From a virus, in the IMG/VR virus record IMGVR_UViG_3300017742_000175, positions 1-20,503 of that record: a stretch of 20,503 nucleotides of DNA, one strand, 5' to 3'. How positions within the stretch are numbered: position 1 is the stretch's first letter; each line of letters starts with the position of its first letter. The translations under genes were made by a program, and so were the position numbers. Positions 4,882-16,544 of the stretch are shown in pieces. The notes beneath the pieces were generated by a model, which did no database searches, was not told the DNA's origin, and saw only the letters and a list, made by a program, of their open reading frames with translations.

Positions 4882-4931
4882 TTTACTTTTTGCTTGAAGC
4901 AGTATATAATACTATATACAGTTGATATAAT
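4882..4931 (+). promoter_or_regulatory. Promoter region of the uvsY operon with palindrome
   Basis: TTTACT (4882-4887), a 17-bp spacer and TATAAT (4905-4910) form a sigma70-type promoter. A second extended -10, TGA-TATAAT, lies at 4923-4931. A perfect inverted repeat, GTATATA-ATAC-TATATAC (4902-4919), covers the first -10 and could be an operator. It does not belong to the TGTACA promoter class used further right. Confidence 0.6.
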
Positions 4932-5832: not shown

Positions 5833-7344
5833 ATGGAAAAAATAAGAGTTAAAAAACTTAACCACGTTAATCTCCAGATAGAGTGCGATGCTGGTATACA
5901 GATGGAAATATCAGAACACTTCTGTTTCTATGTGCCGGGTTATAAATTCATGCCGGCATTTAAGAATCGTATGTGGGATGGTAAGATAAGGCTTTTTGAC
6001 GTTCGTAAACAAACACTATATTGTGGACTTTTTAATTACCTCAAAGAATTTGCTGAAGCTCGTGATTACCAAATTATTGTAGAGGACAACCGTGTATATG
6101 GTAGGCCTGATACTGAAGAGGTAATTGATATTCCTGCATTACTCGATGAATTAACATTGTCCGCCGGCAAGAAATTAATTAAACCAAGAGATTATCAGAT
6201 TAGCGCATTGGACCATGCACTTCGGCATAGGCAATCTCTATTACTATCTCCTACTGCATCCGGTAAATCATTAATCATTTATATGGCTCTCAGATATTAC
6301 TTAGAAACATATGAAGATAACGTATTGTTGATTGTACCTACTACTTCTCTGGTTGAACAGATGTATAGTGACTTTGAAGACTATGCGTATTTCGAAGAAG
6401 AATTTCGTGTAGAAGATAACTGTCACCGAATCTATTCAGGCAAAGAAAAATTTGGTATTAAGAAGAGAGTAATCATTACTACTTGGCAATCAGTATATAA
6501 GCTACCAGGTACTTGGTTTCAAGAATTCGGTATGGTAGTAGGTGATGAGGCGCACAATTTTAAGGCCAAATCATTAACATCTATCCTAGAAAAATGCTGC
6601 AACGCAAAGTATCGTATAGGTACAACAGGTACACTCGATGGTACACAGACACATCGGTTAGTATTAGAAGGTTTATTCGGCCCAGTAAAAAAGGTTACCA
6701 CAACGAAAGATTTGATTGACCAAGGTGCTTTGGCTGACCTCGATGTATCAGTAATCCTCCTTAAGTATGCAGATGAGATTTGCCAGAAGGTATCAAAATT
6801 AAAATACCAAGATGAGATAGATTATATTGTACGTAATGAGGAACGCAACAGGTTTATTACTAACTTGGCACTAGACCAGGATGGCAATACATTAGTGTTG
6901 TTCCAATTTGTAGATAAGCATGGTAAACCACTGCATGATATGATGAGAAAAAAATTAGAGTCATTTGGCGATACAAACCGTAAGTTGTTTTATGTGTCAG
7001 GTGAAACCGATGTTGATACAAGAGAGAAAATCAGAGAGATTACTGAGACCCAGTCTGATGCTATTATTGTTGCTTCATTGGGTACATTCTCTACTGGTAT
7101 TAATATTAAGTCATTGAATAATATTATATTTGCATCTCCAAGTAAATCACAAATTAAAGTTCTTCAGAGTATCGGTAGAGGTTTGCGTAAGAGCGCAGAT
7201 GGTAAAGGTACTAAAGTATTTGACATTGCCGATGACTTACATTGGAAAGCAAAGAAGAACTATACGTTACAACATGCTGGTGTGCGTATAAGTATATACA
7301 GCAAAGAGAAATTCAAATATAAAATTTATGAGGTAAGCCTGTGA
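5833..7344 (+). CDS. uvsW: UvsW-like superfamily 2 helicase
   Basis: A 503-aa protein of the same size as T4 UvsW, the helicase that unwinds R-loops, Holliday junctions and stalled forks. The N-terminal ~100 residues match the UvsW substrate domain (PAFKNRMWDGKIRLFD against PRFRYGNWDGRIRLLD). SF2 motifs follow: Walker A SPTASGKS (139-146), VPTTSLVEQM (Ia), Walker B DEAH (238-241), TGTL (III, near 265), ASLGTFSTGINIKSL (V) and IGRGLRKS with Arg449 and Arg452 (VI). It lies 9 nt after the SNase gene, and its last codons hold the ribosome site of the next gene. Confidence 0.96.
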   Translation: MEKIRVKKLNHVNLQIECDAGIQMEISEHFCFYVPGYKFMPAFKNRMWDGKIRLFDVRKQTLYCGLFNYLKEFAEARDYQIIVEDNRVYGRPDTEEVIDIPALLDELTLSAGKKLIKPRDYQISALDHALRHRQSLLLSPTASGKSLIIYMALRYYLETYEDNVLLIVPTTSLVEQMYSDFEDYAYFEEEFRVEDNCHRIYSGKEKFGIKKRVIITTWQSVYKLPGTWFQEFGMVVGDEAHNFKAKSLTSILEKCCNAKYRIGTTGTLDGTQTHRLVLEGLFGPVKKVTTTKDLIDQGALADLDVSVILLKYADEICQKVSKLKYQDEIDYIVRNEERNRFITNLALDQDGNTLVLFQFVDKHGKPLHDMMRKKLESFGDTNRKLFYVSGETDVDTREKIREITETQSDAIIVASLGTFSTGINIKSLNNIIFASPSKSQIKVLQSIGRGLRKSADGKGTKVFDIADDLHWKAKKNYTLQHAGVRISIYSKEKFKYKIYEVSL

Positions 7345-7709
7345 CTGATGAAGTAAATATTAGACAAATGAAGTTAATTAGCGGTGATGAGATTGTGTGT
7401 CTTGTTAGTTCAGACAACGATAGCACATATCTAGTAGAAACACCTATGGAATTGCGTTATGTACCTGGTACCGCTGGAAAGTATCATTTGCTTCCATGGT
7501 TTGCCCTTTCCAGTTCTAAGCTTGTGAGTATCAATAAGTCAAATGTTATCTCACATTGTGCAGTAGATGCAGAGGTTAAATATCATTACATCTCGCTTGC
7601 GCTCGATGATGGTTCCCATAATGTTGGATTATTAAATGAAGATGAAGAACGACAGTTGGATATGTTTGATGAGCTTATGCTTCCAACTAAGAGTGACTTG
7701 ATTCATTAA
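7341..7709 (+). CDS. Conserved-looking small protein after uvsW, possible Sm-like fold
   Basis: A 122-aa protein starts at GTG 7341, overlapping the uvsW stop (GTGA) with GAGGT six bases upstream. The N-terminal half reads as an SH3/Sm-like barrel: IRQMKLISGDEIVCLV, a strand YLVETPMELRYV, then LLPWFALSSSKLVSINKSNVIS. The C-terminal half is acidic (EDEERQLDMFDELM). This layout recalls small Sm-like proteins of marine T4-like phages, which is an inference. It lies at the end of the uvsY operon, and transcripts from the reverse promoter at 7747 would be antisense to it. Confidence 0.7.
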   Translation: MTDEVNIRQMKLISGDEIVCLVSSDNDSTYLVETPMELRYVPGTAGKYHLLPWFALSSSKLVSINKSNVISHCAVDAEVKYHYISLALDDGSHNVGLLNEDEERQLDMFDELMLPTKSDLIH

Positions 7710-7746: not shown

Positions 7747-7788
7747 ATTATACCATGCTTTGCAGGCTTTGTACACAGTTATTTTGCA
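7747..7788 (-). promoter_or_regulatory. Reverse-strand promoter of the TGTACA class
   Basis: Read on the minus strand, TGCAAAATAACTGTGTACA (7788-7770) matches the block upstream of the 11539 and 13860 genes at 17 of 19 positions. It is followed by a 17-bp spacer and an extended -10 TGG-TATAAT (7755-7747). All elements of the forward class are present in the right order and spacing. It points left, into the 7341-7709 gene and uvsW, where no minus-strand gene is recognised. Confidence 0.75.
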
Positions 7789-7798
7789 TTATTTGCAA
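7784..7798. promoter_or_regulatory. Palindrome TTGCA-N5-TGCAA between divergent promoters
   Basis: A perfect 5-bp inverted repeat with 5-bp spacing lies between the reverse promoter (-35 at 7770) and the forward promoter (-35 at 7831). Its position suits an operator acting on both, but no binding protein is known from the sequence. Confidence 0.4.
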
Positions 7799-7830
7799 TT
7801 AATTTTTTTATGTAATAACGAAATAAAAGG

Positions 7831-7859
7831 TGTACTTTTACATAAAACTGTGGTATAAT
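7831..7859 (+). promoter_or_regulatory. Promoter of gene 55 (TGTACA class)
   Basis: TGTACT, 17 bp and extended -10 TGG-TATAAT match the class also found at 11484, 13794, 15285 and 19212. The start of gene 55 is 24 nt after the -10, with AAGGAGAG as ribosome site. Confidence 0.8.
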
Positions 7860-7883
7860 AACATATTATAAGGAGAGCTACTA

Positions 7884-9637: not shown

Positions 9638-11356
9638 TTGAGTATTCACTTTAAATCTGTAAGATGGAAAAACTTCTTATCTACAGGAGATGAGTTCACA
9701 TCAGTGCAATTGGACCGGACTCCAACTACACTTATTGTAGGCTCAAATGGTGCGGGTAAATCAACAATGCTTGATGCACTTTCGTTTGGGTTATTTGGTA
9801 AACCACATAGGGATATTAAGAAGAACCAACTTATCAATTCTATCAATAGAAAACATGCGGTTGTTGAAGTAGAGTTCAATGCTGGTAAGCAAGAGTTTCG
9901 TATTGTGCGGTCGATTAAACCTAATAAGTTTGAGATTTACCAGAACGGTAACCTCATTAACCAAATGTCCTCGGTAAGAGATTATCAAAAATTCTTAGAA
10001 CAAAACATTCTGAAGCTTAACCATAAGTCATTTCACCAAGTTGTTGTGTTAGGTAGTTCATCATTTATTCCCTTTATGCAAATGCCAGTGTGGTCACGCA
10101 GAGAAGTCATTGAGGACTTATTGGATATTAATATATTCACTAAGATGAATGGTTTACTTAAGGAACGCAACTCTAAGATTAAAGAAGAAATCAAAGATAT
10201 TACACATCAAATTGATTTGGTTAACACTCGTATCGATGGACAGAGCAAGTATATTAAGAATCTAGAGTCGCTTAACACAGATCAGATAAGCCAGAAGCAC
10301 GATTCAATTTCTGATTTGGAGGGTAGCATTAATGACCTATTGGAAGAATCTCAAGACCTAGGTAAAAACCTACCTACATTGATTGAGTCCCAAGAGGCTG
10401 AATGTAAAAAGAACAATTCCTCTGTGAATCAAATGAATTCATACGATATGCAGTTTAATACTAAAATGAAATCTCTGGTACAAGAGTCTAAGTTTTATAC
10501 TGATAATGATAATTGCCCAACATGTGACCAAGTCATCACTGAAGAGAAGAAGAGCGAAAAGGTATCTGAAATTAGTGCGAAAGCGAAAGAACTGAATAAA
10601 GCCTCTGAAGATTTAAAGAAAAAATTAGAAGAAGCAAATAGTGAAGTAGAGGCAAGTAAGGCTAAACTAAAAGAATTACAAGACCGGCAAAACAAGATTC
10701 TTGGTAACAATGATAAAATCGGTATCCTTCAAAATGAGATTAACAAGACTCTCAAAGAGATTGAGAAGCTTACAGGTCAAACTGGTGATATTAACCAAGC
10801 GAAGGTTGAACTTGATGGATTGCGTGAGAATAAGGATACACAAACTGAACGCAAACTAAAGTACTTAGAAGAAAGAACATACAATGAAATTATCGCTGAG
10901 CTTTTAAAGGATACTGGCATTAAGACCAAAATCATTAAACAGTATTTGCCAGTGATGAATAAGTTGATTAATAACTATCTTCAAGTCTTGGATTTCTTTG
11001 TATCATTTCACTTAGATGAAACGTTCACTGAAACCATTCGATCACGTCATCGTGATAACTTTAACTATTCGTCATTTTCTGAGGGTGAGAAGCAACGTAT
11101 TGACCTTGCCTTATTGTTCACATGGCGTCAGATTGCGAAGATGAAGAACAGTGCGTCAACTAATTTATTAGTACTTGATGAAACTTTTGATTCATCCCTA
11201 GACCATGACGGTATAGATAATCTTACAAAAATACTTGAAACATTAGAGGAAGGTTCTAACGTATTCATTATATCCCACAAAGGAGATATTCTCGAGAATA
11301 AGTTTAGGTCCAAGATTGAATTCTACAAAGAACACAATTTCTCTAAAATCAAATAG
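9638..11356 (+). CDS. 46: Recombination nuclease subunit gp46 (SbcC/Rad50-like)
   Basis: A 572-aa SMC-type ATPase, near T4 gp46 (560 aa). Motifs: Walker A GSNGAGKS (35-42), Q-loop region VVLGSSSFIPFMQM, long coiled-coil arms (~170-420) with a zinc hook CPTC (293-296), ABC signature FSEGEK (480-485), and Walker B NLLVLDE with Asp514 and Glu515, followed by the H-loop IISHKG. It forms the ATP-driven clamp that regulates gp47. The start is TTG 9638, behind GAGG in the gp47 tail, and the two are probably coupled. There is no recognisable terminator after the stop. Confidence 0.96.
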   Translation: MSIHFKSVRWKNFLSTGDEFTSVQLDRTPTTLIVGSNGAGKSTMLDALSFGLFGKPHRDIKKNQLINSINRKHAVVEVEFNAGKQEFRIVRSIKPNKFEIYQNGNLINQMSSVRDYQKFLEQNILKLNHKSFHQVVVLGSSSFIPFMQMPVWSRREVIEDLLDINIFTKMNGLLKERNSKIKEEIKDITHQIDLVNTRIDGQSKYIKNLESLNTDQISQKHDSISDLEGSINDLLEESQDLGKNLPTLIESQEAECKKNNSSVNQMNSYDMQFNTKMKSLVQESKFYTDNDNCPTCDQVITEEKKSEKVSEISAKAKELNKASEDLKKKLEEANSEVEASKAKLKELQDRQNKILGNNDKIGILQNEINKTLKEIEKLTGQTGDINQAKVELDGLRENKDTQTERKLKYLEERTYNEIIAELLKDTGIKTKIIKQYLPVMNKLINNYLQVLDFFVSFHLDETFTETIRSRHRDNFNYSSFSEGEKQRIDLALLFTWRQIAKMKNSASTNLLVLDETFDSSLDHDGIDNLTKILETLEEGSNVFIISHKGDILENKFRSKIEFYKEHNFSKIK

Positions 11357-11389
11357 CCCTTACCTTAGGGCCAGACCTGAGTATGTCTG
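11356..11389 (+). other. Two short hairpins after gene 46
   Basis: GCCCT-N6-AGGGC (11356-11371) and CAGAC-N8-GTCTG (11372-11389) lie directly after the stop. Neither is followed by a T-run. They may slow exonucleases or weakly attenuate read-through into the next unit. Confidence 0.35.
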
Positions 11390-11418: not shown

Positions 11419-11438
11419 GTGTGATATAAATGTCACAT
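11419..11438. promoter_or_regulatory. Operator-like palindrome upstream of the VWA gene
   Basis: GTGTGATATAAATGTCACAT contains TGTGA-N8-TCACA, and the same element recurs as a better palindrome at 13739-13758 upstream of the AAA+ gene. It is centred 78.5 bp before the first base of the -10. The half-sites resemble CRP-family half-sites, but the usual CRP spacing is N6, so this is only a resemblance. Confidence 0.55.
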
Positions 11439-11470
11439 ATTCTAAAAAAGTATAAAAAAATGGCATAAAC

Positions 11471-11520
11471 TGCAAAATAGTTGTGTACATACCCAATTGT
11501 TCGTGGTATAATGGTTACAT
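11471..11520 (+). promoter_or_regulatory. Promoter of the VWA/HExxH gene (TGTACA class)
   Basis: TGCAAAATAGTTGTGTACAT (11471-11490) holds -35 TGTACA, followed by 17 bp and extended -10 TGG-TATAAT (11504-11512), then GGTTACATAAATT. The 20-mer and the flanks of the -10 are repeated upstream of the AAA+ gene. Confidence 0.85.
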
Positions 11521-11538
11521 AAATTGAGAGGAATATCT

Positions 11539-13737
11539 ATGTCATTGTTAACTAATCCAATCCTAGCCAAGCTACTCGCCAAGGAGAACCTTGAGGTTCG
11601 TCATGGTAACTTCCGTACGGCATGGTTTGACCCTAAGAATCGGGTATTAGGTCTTCCTATCTGGAAAGACCATGGTAAAGATGTGTATGATTTGTTGGTT
11701 GGCCACGAAGTTGGTCATGCTCTGTTTACTCCTTCTGAGGGTTGGCATGGTGCTAACGAAGAAATCAAAGGTTGTCCTCATAGTTACCTAAACGTTATTG
11801 AAGATGTACGTATTGAACGTAAGATTCGTGAGACTTATCCTGGTTTGATTTCGCCAATGAAGCGTGGATACAAAGTTCTCGTTGAGAAAGAATTCTTCGG
11901 TGACTTAGATAGTTACGATATGGATAAGATGAAGCTTATTGATAAAATCAATCTGAAGTCTAAACTACGTAGCGAGATTGAAGTTCCGTTCAATTCTGAA
12001 GAGCAAGTATTATTTGACCGTTCTCTTAAAGCCGAGACATGGTCAGAAGTTGTTCAGATTGTTCGTGATATCCTAGCCTATTCAAAAGCCTTAGAAGAAG
12101 ATAAACAAGAGCTTCCTCAGATTGCGGCTAATGAAGATAATGAAGATACTACTGAAGAAGAGAGTGACAACGAAGCCACTGCACCTTCTGTAACGAATAC
12201 TCCTGAGGGTGACGAAGAAGAAGACGAAGATAATTCAAATAGTGGTGGCGAAGGTGATGACGAAGAAGAAACATCATCTGACGAAGAAGACCAAGATGAG
12301 ACTACTGCTTCAGCACAGACCAAAGATGATGAAGATGATTTGGAAACTTCAATCACTGATAAGATTTTCCGTTCTCGTGAAGAAGAACTTTTAGATACTA
12401 ATGAAGATGGACATCAACCGGTCTTTGTGCAAGAGATGAAAAAAGAACTTCGTGATTTTGTGACGGTTAAGTATGACCGATTGGTAGAAGAACGTGCTAA
12501 AGTTCGTTCACAAAAAGATAACAATTTCCCACAATACGAGCTTGACAACAATCTTCCTAATGAATTCAATATACATTATAAGTCTGTGAAGAAAGCAATT
12601 ACTCCTGCGGTTAAAGAGTTTGAGATGCGTAAGGCTGCATATCAATATCAACGTTCATCTTCTGCGAAAACCGGAAGCGTTGATGTGAACCGAGTACATT
12701 CATACAAGTTCAATGATGACATATTCAAGCGAGTGACTCTTCAGGCTGATGCGAAGAATCACGGAATGTTTTTGTTAGTTGATTACTCTGGTTCTATGTA
12801 CGAGACATTGGATAATGCGCTTGACCAAGTGATGCACTTAGTTGCTTTCTGTAAGGCAACTAATATTCCTTTTGAGGTTTATGGGTTTAGTTCAAACACA
12901 TCTACTTATGACCAAGGCGGTTGGCAGCCAGGAACTATGGACCTCGATAATCTTACATTGTTTCAGATGACTAGTTCAACTCTGAAGAAGAAAGAATTCG
13001 AAGATTCTATATACAACATTTGGTTGCGTAGATTATGTTCTAGCCGATATGGTGACATGCGTTGGGCTGGTGTATACCCACGAGATATCTATTGTCCTCT
13101 TGAAGAGTTCGGTTCTACTCCTTTGCACCAAGCATTGAATGTCTCTTACTACTTAGTAAAGGAAATGATTAGAAAGAACAACATCGAGAAGATGAGCTTT
13201 GTAACTTTAACTGATGGTGATTCAAACAACCTTCGTGTGTATCAATCAAATAGAGAAGACAATGCCATGCCGACAAAGTTCGGTCGTAAAGGTGGAGAAT
13301 ATTCTATGGTGATTGATAAGAAGATGGTAAAGTTTGAGGGAGCTCGTAGCGCGACTCAGGCTATCCTAGAACATATGCAAAAACGTCTAGGTCTTACTAC
13401 TGTCGGATTCTTTATTGCGGACAATAATCGTTATATGCACAACCGTTGCTGGCATGCGAATAATGATTCAAAGACCACAAAGAATCAATACTATGAGAAC
13501 AAAGAAGGTAATTCTGAATACCGCAAGAACCGTTGTATTGCATTCCAAGATACATTAGGTTACAACGAGTATTATGTTCTTAAGAAGACTGGTCTCAGTA
13601 CAGAAGAAGACGAAGGTTTTGGTGCTGTAGAGGCTGGAATGAGTAAAGGCAAACTTAACTCTGAGTTCAAGAAGTTCGCGAAGTCTAAGAAGACAAACCG
13701 AGTTTTGATGACAAAGTTTGCTAAAGCGGTTGCATAA
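11539..13737 (+). CDS. HExxH metallopeptidase-like protein with C-terminal VWA domain (CobT-like)
   Basis: The start is ATG 11539 (MSLLTNPILAKLLAKENLEV) behind GAGAGGA; an in-frame TTG at 11524 would put the ribosome site inside the gene. The 732-aa protein has three parts. Residues 1-~190 carry LVGHEVGHALFT with HEVGH at 56-60, and LNVIEDVRIERKI with Glu88, a likely third zinc ligand as in gluzincins. Residues ~195-270 are an acidic linker. The rest holds a VWA domain with a complete MIDAS: DYSGSM (Asp415, Ser417, Ser419), Thr527 in GSTPLH, and TDGDS (Asp559). VWA proteins of this sort pair with MoxR/CobS AAA+ ATPases, and such an ATPase is the next gene. It is likely a zinc protease or inactive scaffold driven by that ATPase; the substrate is unknown. 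Confidence 0.88.
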   Translation: MSLLTNPILAKLLAKENLEVRHGNFRTAWFDPKNRVLGLPIWKDHGKDVYDLLVGHEVGHALFTPSEGWHGANEEIKGCPHSYLNVIEDVRIERKIRETYPGLISPMKRGYKVLVEKEFFGDLDSYDMDKMKLIDKINLKSKLRSEIEVPFNSEEQVLFDRSLKAETWSEVVQIVRDILAYSKALEEDKQELPQIAANEDNEDTTEEESDNEATAPSVTNTPEGDEEEDEDNSNSGGEGDDEEETSSDEEDQDETTASAQTKDDEDDLETSITDKIFRSREEELLDTNEDGHQPVFVQEMKKELRDFVTVKYDRLVEERAKVRSQKDNNFPQYELDNNLPNEFNIHYKSVKKAITPAVKEFEMRKAAYQYQRSSSAKTGSVDVNRVHSYKFNDDIFKRVTLQADAKNHGMFLLVDYSGSMYETLDNALDQVMHLVAFCKATNIPFEVYGFSSNTSTYDQGGWQPGTMDLDNLTLFQMTSSTLKKKEFEDSIYNIWLRRLCSSRYGDMRWAGVYPRDIYCPLEEFGSTPLHQALNVSYYLVKEMIRKNNIEKMSFVTLTDGDSNNLRVYQSNREDNAMPTKFGRKGGEYSMVIDKKMVKFEGARSATQAILEHMQKRLGLTTVGFFIADNNRYMHNRCWHANNDSKTTKNQYYENKEGNSEYRKNRCIAFQDTLGYNEYYVLKKTGLSTEEDEGFGAVEAGMSKGKLNSEFKKFAKSKKTNRVLMTKFAKAVA

Positions 13738-13738
13738 A

Positions 13739-13758
13739 GTGTGACTTAAATGTCACAC
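13739..13758. promoter_or_regulatory. Operator-like palindrome upstream of the AAA+ gene
   Basis: GTGTGAC-TTAAAT-GTCACAC is a perfect 7-bp inverted repeat, extended by an outer A/T pair, and starts one base after the VWA stop. It repeats the element at 11419. No T-run follows, so it is not an intrinsic terminator. It is centred 68.5 bp before the -10, exactly 10 bp closer than the first copy. Confidence 0.65.
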
Positions 13759-13780
13759 TGGTCATTTAAATGGCAAATAA

Positions 13781-13830
13781 TGCAAAATAGTTGTGTACAT
13801 TACCAGAACATCGTGGTATAATGGTCACAT
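13781..13830 (+). promoter_or_regulatory. Promoter of the AAA+ gene (TGTACA class)
   Basis: The 20-mer TGCAAAATAGTTGTGTACAT is identical to that at 11471. The -35 TGTACA, 17-bp spacer and extended -10 TGG-TATAAT (13814-13822) follow, then GGTCACATAAATT. So the AAA+ gene can be transcribed apart from the VWA gene. Confidence 0.85.
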
Positions 13831-13859: not shown

Positions 13860-14999
13860 ATGAAAATTTCAACCTTGAATATCCTGAAAGAACTTAAGTC
13901 TAACTCACCTGACAGTAATCTGTTTAGAACTGCAGTGATTGAGTCAACTACCAAAGCCCTTGGCTATACTAACAAAGATTATTGGGGACCTATTTGTAAT
14001 GCTACAAACCGAGTTCGTAACGGTACATATGACCTTTCAACTATGTTGGAAAATGTAGTGGTTGATATTCCAAAGATGAATCAACAAGTCTCTAATCAAA
14101 CTTCGGCCGCTATGGTTTCTTCTGTTACTAATAACGAGAAGACATTTGCTAAGGCTGACCCTACGTTTGTTCCATGGGGTTCATACAATGATATCCTACG
14201 AATCCTCAAGTCTGAGATGTTCTATCCTACATATGTTTCAGGATTATCCGGTAACGGTAAAACCTTTATGGTTGAACAAGCTTGTGCTAAGTTAAATCGT
14301 CAATTCATTCGTGTTCAGATTAATCCTGAGACTGATGAAGATGATTTGATTGGTGGATTCCGTCTTATCAATGGCGAGACTGTGTTTCAAAAAGGTCCAG
14401 TAATCAAAGCAATGGAAGACGGTTGTGTCCTTCTACTCGATGAGATTGACCGTGCTACAAACAAGATTATGTGCCTACAAGGTATCCTCGAAGGTAAGTC
14501 AGTTCTTGTCAAGAAAACTGGTGAGACTGTTACTCCTGCTAAGGGATTCAATGTTATTGCTACTGCGAACACTAAAGGTAAGGGTTCAGAGGATGGCCGA
14601 TTCACTGCGGCTTCTATTATCGATGATGCATTCCTTGAGCGTTTCGTTATTTCGATTGACCAGAAGTTTCCATCCATTTCGGTTGAACGTAAGATTGTGG
14701 CTAACCACATGAGTAAGTATGGTTCTGAAGACAAAGACTTCTGCGAGAAGCTAGTTAATTGGGCTGATATTATTCGTAAGACGTTTTACGATGATGGTAT
14801 TGATGAGGTTATTTCAACTCGTCGTTTGTGTCACATCGTACAGACCTTCTCTATCTTCAATGATAAGATGAAGTCAATTGACTTGTGTACTGCACGTTTC
14901 GATGATGACACGAAAGATGCCTTCATGGATTTGTACACTAAAATAGATAACACGGTTGAGGGTGAGTCCGCAACCACAACGGAGGAAGTAAATGGCTAA
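13860..14999 (+). CDS. CobS/MoxR-like AAA+ ATPase
   Basis: A 379-aa protein with an N-terminal ~110-residue domain of unknown role, followed by an AAA+ core: Walker A GLSGNGKT (128-135), the MoxR/CobS block INPETDEDDLIGGFRL (154-169), Walker B CVLLLDEID (189-197), sensor-1 ATANTKGKG with Asn237, and DDAFLERF with a candidate Arg finger at 261. Cyanophage homologues are usually called CobS after the cobaltochelatase subunit, but no cobalamin genes lie here. The close VWA neighbour fits the MoxR-VWA pairing seen in RavA-ViaA and NorQ-NorD, where the ATPase remodels a target recognised by the VWA protein. The stop overlaps the DUF3310 start. Confidence 0.92.
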   Translation: MKISTLNILKELKSNSPDSNLFRTAVIESTTKALGYTNKDYWGPICNATNRVRNGTYDLSTMLENVVVDIPKMNQQVSNQTSAAMVSSVTNNEKTFAKADPTFVPWGSYNDILRILKSEMFYPTYVSGLSGNGKTFMVEQACAKLNRQFIRVQINPETDEDDLIGGFRLINGETVFQKGPVIKAMEDGCVLLLDEIDRATNKIMCLQGILEGKSVLVKKTGETVTPAKGFNVIATANTKGKGSEDGRFTAASIIDDAFLERFVISIDQKFPSISVERKIVANHMSKYGSEDKDFCEKLVNWADIIRKTFYDDGIDEVISTRRLCHIVQTFSIFNDKMKSIDLCTARFDDDTKDAFMDLYTKIDNTVEGESATTTEEVNG

Positions 15000-16286: not shown

Positions 16287-16544
16287 ATGCAAACAAGCGA
16301 AAAACATTTACTCATCGAAGCATTAATGAAAGGAACTGTCACTGTCACTTTTAAGAAGATTAACAGTGATGAGATTCGTGTAATGCCTTGCACATTAAAC
16401 CCCAAAGTTCTAGAAGCAAATGGAATCACAACTGAAGTTAAATCAGTTGCGGCCGATTCGGACCATATTGCAACATGGGCTTTGGACAAAGAAGCATGGA
16501 GGTCATTTCGGACTAGTACAGTTCTCGGTTGGGAGGTACTATAA
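16287..16544 (+). CDS. DUF2693-like (WYL_2, Sm-like SH3-barrel) protein
   Basis: An 85-aa protein. The strand pattern ALMKGTVTVTFKKINSDEIRVMPCTLNP and the ending IATWALDKEAWRSFRTSTVLGWEVL fit DUF2693/WYL_2, small SH3-barrel proteins found next to replication genes in T4-like phages. The WRSFR block is the most characteristic part. Its function is not known; nucleic-acid or protein binding is plausible from the fold. Its TAA shares one base with the gene 44 ATG (TAATG), and its end carries GGGAGG for gene 44, so the two are coupled. Confidence 0.75.
   Translation: MQTSEKHLLIEALMKGTVTVTFKKINSDEIRVMPCTLNPKVLEANGITTEVKSVAADSDHIATWALDKEAWRSFRTSTVLGWEVL

Follow-up and report, generated by a model that had tools for sequence, protein, structure and literature searches.

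Gene content of the window

The 20 503-base stretch analysed here, referred to below as the window, is an entire virus record and, judged from its gene content, reads as a fragment of a T4-like phage. It includes genes for the gp21 protease, gp23, UvsW, gp46/47-like proteins, a VWA/cobT-type protein, an AAA+ protein of the cobS type, gp45 and gp44, and its gp23 shares 58–64 % identity with Kyanoviridae among the 15 best matches (e.g. HTVC008M and phage C48C1). No close DNA match to the window was found in a near-identity search of cultured phages, a blastn comparison of the cobS control region with phages gave nothing beyond weak matches of 25–26 bases, and an Rfam search of the window had no match. 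The VWA/cobT-type gene had no match in a Pfam search, and the homologue of the cobS-type ATPase in locus L324 is phrog_249. A gene for an 85 aa protein (16287–16544) lies between gp45 and gp44 and has homologues in G001, G014, G025 and G431, all of which are operator-bearing contigs.

Two control regions

The palindrome TGTGAYATWWATRTCACA is found upstream of the promoters of both cobT and cobS (Table 1).

Table 1. Features of the cobT and cobS control regions (window coordinates)
Feature	Position	Strand	Remarks
Palindrome copy 1, TGTGATATAAATGTCACA, 18 bp core, putative operator	11420..11437	none	Centre 78.5 bp before −10 (cobT); as 19-mer, 11419–11437
20-mer, copy 1	11471..11490		Exact repeat
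AT-rich upstream part of 20-mer, copy 1	11471..11483	+	UP-element-like by resemblance only
T4-type early promoter, copy 1	11484..11512	+	TGTACA −35, 17 bp, TATAAT −10 preceded by TG
TATAAT, copy 1	11507..11512		
VWA/cobT-type gene	11539..13737	+	463 phage records, every one <60 % identity; annotated 'peptidase' in cyanophages
Palindrome copy 2, TGTGACTTAAATGTCACA, 18 bp core, putative operator	13740..13757	none	Directly after cobT stop; centre 68.5 bp before −10 (cobS); as 19-mer, 13739–13757
20-mer, copy 2	13781..13800		Exact repeat
AT-rich upstream part of 20-mer, copy 2	13781..13793	+	Sequence match to copy 1
T4-type early promoter, copy 2	13794..13822	+	Promoter scan
TATAAT, copy 2	13817..13822		
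AAA+ cobS-type ATPase gene	13860..14999	+	Pfam AAA_5, 2.5e-21

An earlier note on this DNA had described palindromes, 20-mers and −10 elements upstream of the VWA and AAA+ genes. All were found where it placed them, and remeasurement from the palindrome centre to the first T of TATAAT, the distance used throughout, reproduced its values of 78.5 and 68.5 bp exactly, confirming that the paired arrangement is real. With up to three mismatches allowed, the window contains three matches to the palindrome (shuffle mean 0.07), one of them a site already counted, read on the opposite strand, and three to the 20-mer (shuffle mean 0.01). Two details were corrected. The stretch between palindrome and 20-mer, given as 32 and 22 bp, measures 33 and 23 bp from the 19-mer, leaving the difference of 10 bp intact, and the spacer is indeed 17 bp long but runs from the TGTACA inside the 20-mer to TATAAT and not from the end of the 20-mer. 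A terminator-like hairpin on the minus strand (11354–11373) follows gp46 and lies just ahead of the first putative operator.

The 20-mer belongs to a T4-type early promoter

The 20-mer contains TGTACA, 17 bp ahead of a TATAAT that is extended by a preceding TG. In PMC1524935, T4-like early promoters are described as carrying GTTTAC from −36 to −31, position −33 being preferentially G in RB49, RB43 and Aeh1. Positions −40 to −44 are rich in A, and the −10 resembles TATAAT and has its last base at −7. The window promoters resemble them in having GTGTAC at −36 to −31, A-rich DNA upstream and GT before TATAAT, and both show the GTTTAC/GTGTAC-like −35 and GT-rich stretch before TATAAT that we took from this consensus to define the T4-type early class. 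Because TGTACA, the 17 bp spacing and TG-TATAAT agree with the T4-like early consensus (PMC1524935), the 20-mer is a promoter element of a kind widespread in this phage group, together with AT-rich upstream DNA, and not a special duplicated region. A T4 middle (MotA) promoter was considered and rejected, as neither window promoter has the TGCTTtA box (consensus from PMC1524935) 11–13 bp before TATAAT.

The scan identified six T4-type early promoters in the window and the palindrome is at only two of these. T4-type promoters lacking it are at 7831+, 15285+ and 19212+, with a weaker one near 4903+, and a third 20-mer-like copy (three mismatches, 7788–7769, minus strand) also belongs to a promoter without the palindrome. 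Hence, the 'duplicated control region' of the earlier note is not simply one unit, since early promoters that are otherwise alike may have the palindrome or lack it. The subset that carries it differs from T4-type early promoters as described in section 10 of PMC1524935 in bearing a putative operator at a fixed distance.

Two early promoters in the window are divergent (7747–7864; 7775 minus and 7831 plus). The minus promoter reads antisense into 7341–7709, where no ORF was seen, and its product is possibly a small RNA. Relatives share this layout, and in G006 the palindrome lies between the two promoters.

Palindrome-to-promoter distances fall in two bands

In the loci fetched first, copies of the motif clustered at 68.5/69.5 and 78.5/79.5 bp upstream of T4-type early promoters. 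An unrestricted scan (25–150 bp, all loci then gathered, cultured phages excluded) yielded 56 motif–promoter pairs, with 45 inside the bands and the other 11 at single values and mostly involving promoter matches that were poor by inspection. Three control motifs gave 0, 0 and 1 promoter-linked pairs.

The final census began from promoters, using the 447 distinct ones in all fetched loci, the motif at up to two mismatches and distances of 34.5–116.5 bp. The palindrome was present at 49 promoters, whereas 0.05 matches were expected in shuffled upstream DNA, and the nearest copy was in one of two bands at 48 of them, 33 at 66.5–69.5 bp and 15 at 77.5–79.5 bp, with none at 70.5–76.5 bp. The individual distances were 44.5 (1), 66.5 (1), 67.5 (1), 68.5 (22), 69.5 (9), 77.5 (2), 78.5 (9) and 79.5 bp (4). 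The exception at 44.5 bp is the second of two divergent promoters sharing one palindrome, which is 68.5 bp from the other promoter. When similar promoters were collapsed, 30 of 31 remained in the bands. Phase concentration was strongest at a period of 10.5 bp (0.90) among those tried, with 10 and 11 bp nearly equal. The earlier note had argued that the palindrome keeps to one face of the helix and had suggested tabulating its distance to the −10 in related phages; the tabulation upholds the argument, as in near and distant phages alike the distances form two bands one helical turn apart. At promoters without the motif, generic palindromes were not enriched at the same distance.

The census counts are not independent, because the sites are related to one another and the palindrome or the promoter itself was used to fetch many of the loci. 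On their own, two copies in a single window are little proof, and with loci partly chosen by the motif the pattern might be due to chance or sampling. We regard this as most improbable given the control motifs and two sets of loci that were chosen in other ways and show the same bands. In a palindrome-blind sample, fetched by promoter letters, six of 94 promoters had the motif (within 160 bp, up to three mismatches) and all six were in the bands. Loci picked by homology to one operator-controlled protein (six of seven read, two from contigs already seen, and with some palindromes lacking a called promoter) added four new contigs, in which all eight nearest copies with a called promoter were at 68.5/69.5 bp. 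Outer copies of tandem pairs were at 102.5/103.5 bp in the new contigs and at 96.5 bp in two already-seen contigs, and thus the inner copy alone is kept at a fixed place.

Fetching blind to promoters gave 44 new palindromes. The best promoter-like match was in the bands for three (68.5 bp, twice, and 77.5 bp) and elsewhere for six (60.5, 80.5, 96.5, 103.5, 106.5 and 117.5 bp, one each), and 35 had none. Five of the six out-of-band matches are poor promoters, and in the 96.5 bp case (L401) there is a second palindrome at 69.5 bp.

Shared ancestry and the stem-loop explanation

The distance varies between cassettes of a single phage, as the G010 phage has two cassettes that share a flank but have distances exactly 10 bp apart (78.5 and 68.5 bp). 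Judging by their gene order relative to that of G012, G001 and G010 probably represent two parts of a single genome, and their five exact sites are at 78.5, 68.5, 68.5, 78.5 and 68.5 bp. For cobS, the distance is 68.5 bp in the window and in L324, and 79.5 bp in L061. The five cobT orthologues listed with a site have 77.5 to 79.5 bp. The genes served are unlike one another (a search confined to the two distance bands listed 47 distinct sites). The 36 bp from palindrome to −35 at sites of the 68.5 bp type have a median identity of 39 % compared to a mean of 28 % for shuffled letters, and the palindrome-to-−35 stretches include AT-rich, GC-rich and terminator-bearing DNA. Two discrete distances over such unlike sequence would not be expected from common descent alone.

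This bears on the possibility that the palindrome is an RNA stem-loop, a terminator or the 3′ end of the upstream gene, within a shuffling promoter-early stem-loop (PeSL) cassette, the distance simply being inherited with the cassette. PMC4503421 and PMC5931544 cite known PeSLs of T4-like phages, the palindrome is often within a few bases after the upstream stop codon, and the RNA folds well (−7.6 kcal/mol for copy 1 and −15.8 kcal/mol for a 44 nt piece with copy 2). Against it, in addition to the two distances, in tandem pairs the distance of the outer copy varies, and at L326 (9442–9467) and L055 (3014–3052) a separate intrinsic terminator lies between the palindrome and the −35. At these loci the arrangement is like that of PeSLs, with an early promoter and an intrinsic terminator just upstream of it in the intergenic gap, but the palindrome is present in addition, upstream of the terminator, and is conserved in sequence and in distance. 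The palindrome was rejected as a terminator itself, as in the window the transcribed strand has no U-tract after it and it is missing from the terminator predictions, which include none for the plus strand of the two gaps. The stem-loop explanation therefore seems very improbable.

Symmetry and distribution of the palindrome

Both arms of the palindrome are near-invariant over 15 cluster representatives. A direct-repeat reading resembling a PHO box was discarded, as there were no direct TGTGA pairs and the arms are symmetric. The CRP/FNR-family consensus site is TGTGA-N6-TCACA. The earlier note had pointed to a resemblance to CRP-family sites; this applies to the half-sites but not to the spacing, as with exact arms at the 447 promoters the inner spacing was N8 in 39 cases, N7 in two and N6 in none, and the palindrome is thus not a CRP site.

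Repeated occurrence, as expected of a site belonging to a host regulon, was not found in bacterial genomes, where the motif is near chance level both in the genome collection (searched for exact matches) and in 398 Pseudomonadota genomes (searched at one mismatch). The looser 19-mer pattern is present in 88 viral stretches and a tighter one has four exact matches in the genome collection, but the two patterns differ. Among the 398 Pseudomonadota genomes nine match, one of which is the sample centre and was already known to carry the motif. In five cultured Kyanoviridae genomes, the motif was found at two to three mismatches only, with one-strand counts of 2, 1, 4, 2 and 3 compared to 2, 1, 3, 0 and 0 for the control.

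The same palindrome, often centred on TATA, was seen in contigs resembling other phage groups (L002, L003, L021, L030, L029, L031, L066 and many of L360–L398), sometimes beside degenerate copies such as TGTTGCATAAATGTCACA and lacking a T4-type promoter at the set distance. From ORF reading, terminase-type genes of other phages are present in the contigs of many of the earlier palindrome loci that had no promoter, and therefore the palindrome also exists outside the T4-type early promoter class. Many of the palindromes fetched blind to promoters are likewise in other phage groups, where the palindrome must have another role or work with different promoters.

A generic search for TGTNN-N8-N′N′ACA before 902 loosely defined promoters gave 46 matches, compared to one and two for the same arms with N7 or N9 and zero to four for other arms. 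This revealed a sister form, TGTTG-N8-CAACA, at nine positions: 36.5, 38.5, 48.5 (2), 57.5, 58.5, 69.5 and 78.5 bp (2). Eight of these nine positions agree with the same helical comb to about 1 bp and 36.5 bp is off phase, though the numbers are small. The sister form is present in six other cobT-bearing T4-like loci (L107, L109, L157, L159, L160 and L168), and at the cobT promoters of L107 and L109 there is a TGTTG pair at 48.5 and 78.5 bp. The GTTATAA palindromes of L092–L098 were considered as a further sister operator but not counted, as L092 and L093 differ by about 12 bp, which is not one turn.

A putative activator operator

We propose that a dimeric transcription regulator binds the palindrome and acts at a subset of early promoters of the host sigma70 type, from a fixed face of the helix at about −80.5 or −90.5, and put the probability of this at roughly 0.55. 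These centres follow from a start site assumed from the −10, with TATAAT at −12 to −7. The bound regulator would contact RNA polymerase, most simply through the alpha C-terminal domain, the contact made by CRP at class I sites, and would activate rather than repress. The outcome would be a delayed-early or tuned promoter class that raises cobT/cobS and assorted small early genes once the first phage proteins appear.

In the account given in PMC6301791, Escherichia coli CRP activates from −61.5, −71.5/−72.5 and −81.5/−82.5 and hardly at −66.5 or −76.5. With the assumed start site, the palindrome centres fall within 1–2 bp of this class I comb, and as at lac-type class I promoters (PMC6301791) a symmetric site upstream of a sigma70 promoter is tolerated one helical turn apart. 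The palindrome differs from CRP class I sites in its N8 inner spacing, in a motif that is bound to viruses and, for the TGTGA type, in occupying two comb positions only. A further parallel is with p4 of phi29, a phage-encoded dimer that acts on inverted repeats near sigma-A promoters (PMC3100819), but the p4 site described there, CTTTTT-15 bp-AAAATG, is unrelated to the palindrome in sequence and layout.

Whether the regulator activates or represses was approached through the −10 element. A consensus TATAAT is present at 16 of 32 promoters with the palindrome and 63 of 73 without it (p 1.6e-4), at 7/23 and 46/56, respectively, when promoters found with the scan pattern are removed, and at 10/18 and 35/38 in loci not fetched by the promoter scan, but in long contigs alone there is no difference (2/2 and 21/27); all of these comparisons drew on chosen locus subsets (35 or fewer). 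The weaker −10 elements favour an activator, which on this evidence is the more likely. The same operator could instead bind a protein that holds or loops polymerase from the same face, shutting early genes off later. Dependence on the helix face equally fits repressors that touch polymerase, p4 of phi29 takes part in both activation and repression (PMC3100819), and both palindrome promoters in the window have a consensus −10 and look strong unaided. As the −10 elements at palindrome promoters are generally weaker, and as overlap with the core promoter would be a simpler repressor site, we consider repression unlikely.

If the several operator forms are taken together, these early promoters may form a further class in T4-like phages. 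Their driver would be a class I activator encoded by the phage and belonging to a new family, and its operator would have diversified from one phage lineage to another (TGTGA, TGTTG and TGTAT arms, always N8) with the helical phase kept. We advance this tentatively, at somewhat less than even odds.

The search for a regulator

The regulator of the proposed operator is probably encoded by the phage. A host protein, of the CRP family or another, recruited by the phage would account for the CRP-like half-sites and for the same palindrome in other phage groups, as if several phages shared one host factor. It is at odds with the N8 spacing and with the near-chance occurrence of the motif in bacteria, and we judge it rather unlikely. 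The rarity of the motif in bacteria speaks for a phage protein and weakens the host-protein reading, although phages could carry better sites than any on the chromosomes of their hosts.

G431 is a 155 kb contig with T4-like core genes, and hence a phage regulator should be encoded in it. No convincing DNA-binding regulator was found with Pfam and PHROGs among the top 25 families listed for 75 of the 166 ORFs of the best relative, or among the operator-controlled genes, and a comparison of the genes common to G431 and other operator phages yielded no convincing regulator. G432 served in homology searches only. The best candidate, which is a lead only, is an operator-controlled protein of 186 aa with a helix-turn-helix-like start. 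It was found in the G431/G433 group only and is absent by sequence from the group that includes the window. Its AlphaFold model has a mean pLDDT of 54, with 69–78 by block over the first 50 residues. In L424 (12858–13418), L419 (16076–16636) and L326 (10062–10601), operator-controlled proteins were also seen whose N-terminus is helix-turn-helix-like and whose tail is rich in lysine and proline, and it is possible that these are autoregulators.

Implications for early gene control

In a literature collection short of most subscription papers and of the two original PeSL papers, the letters of the palindrome did not occur in full text, and no operator or activator on T4-like early promoters was found among the papers listed. 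We have filed the palindrome system as class I-like control of T4-type early promoters by a predicted regulator. The usual view of T4-like early promoters is that they are host-type and constitutive. T4-like phages are common in the sea, and a strictly phased operator on chosen early promoters, the subset being those for cobT, cobS and small early genes, would mean that early control has a layer so far unrecognised, with a new regulator. The two spacings amount to natural 10 bp insertions and would offer a direct test of activation of the alpha C-terminal domain type outside E. coli, and the motif would provide a simple handle for locating the regulator gene once a cultured member exists.
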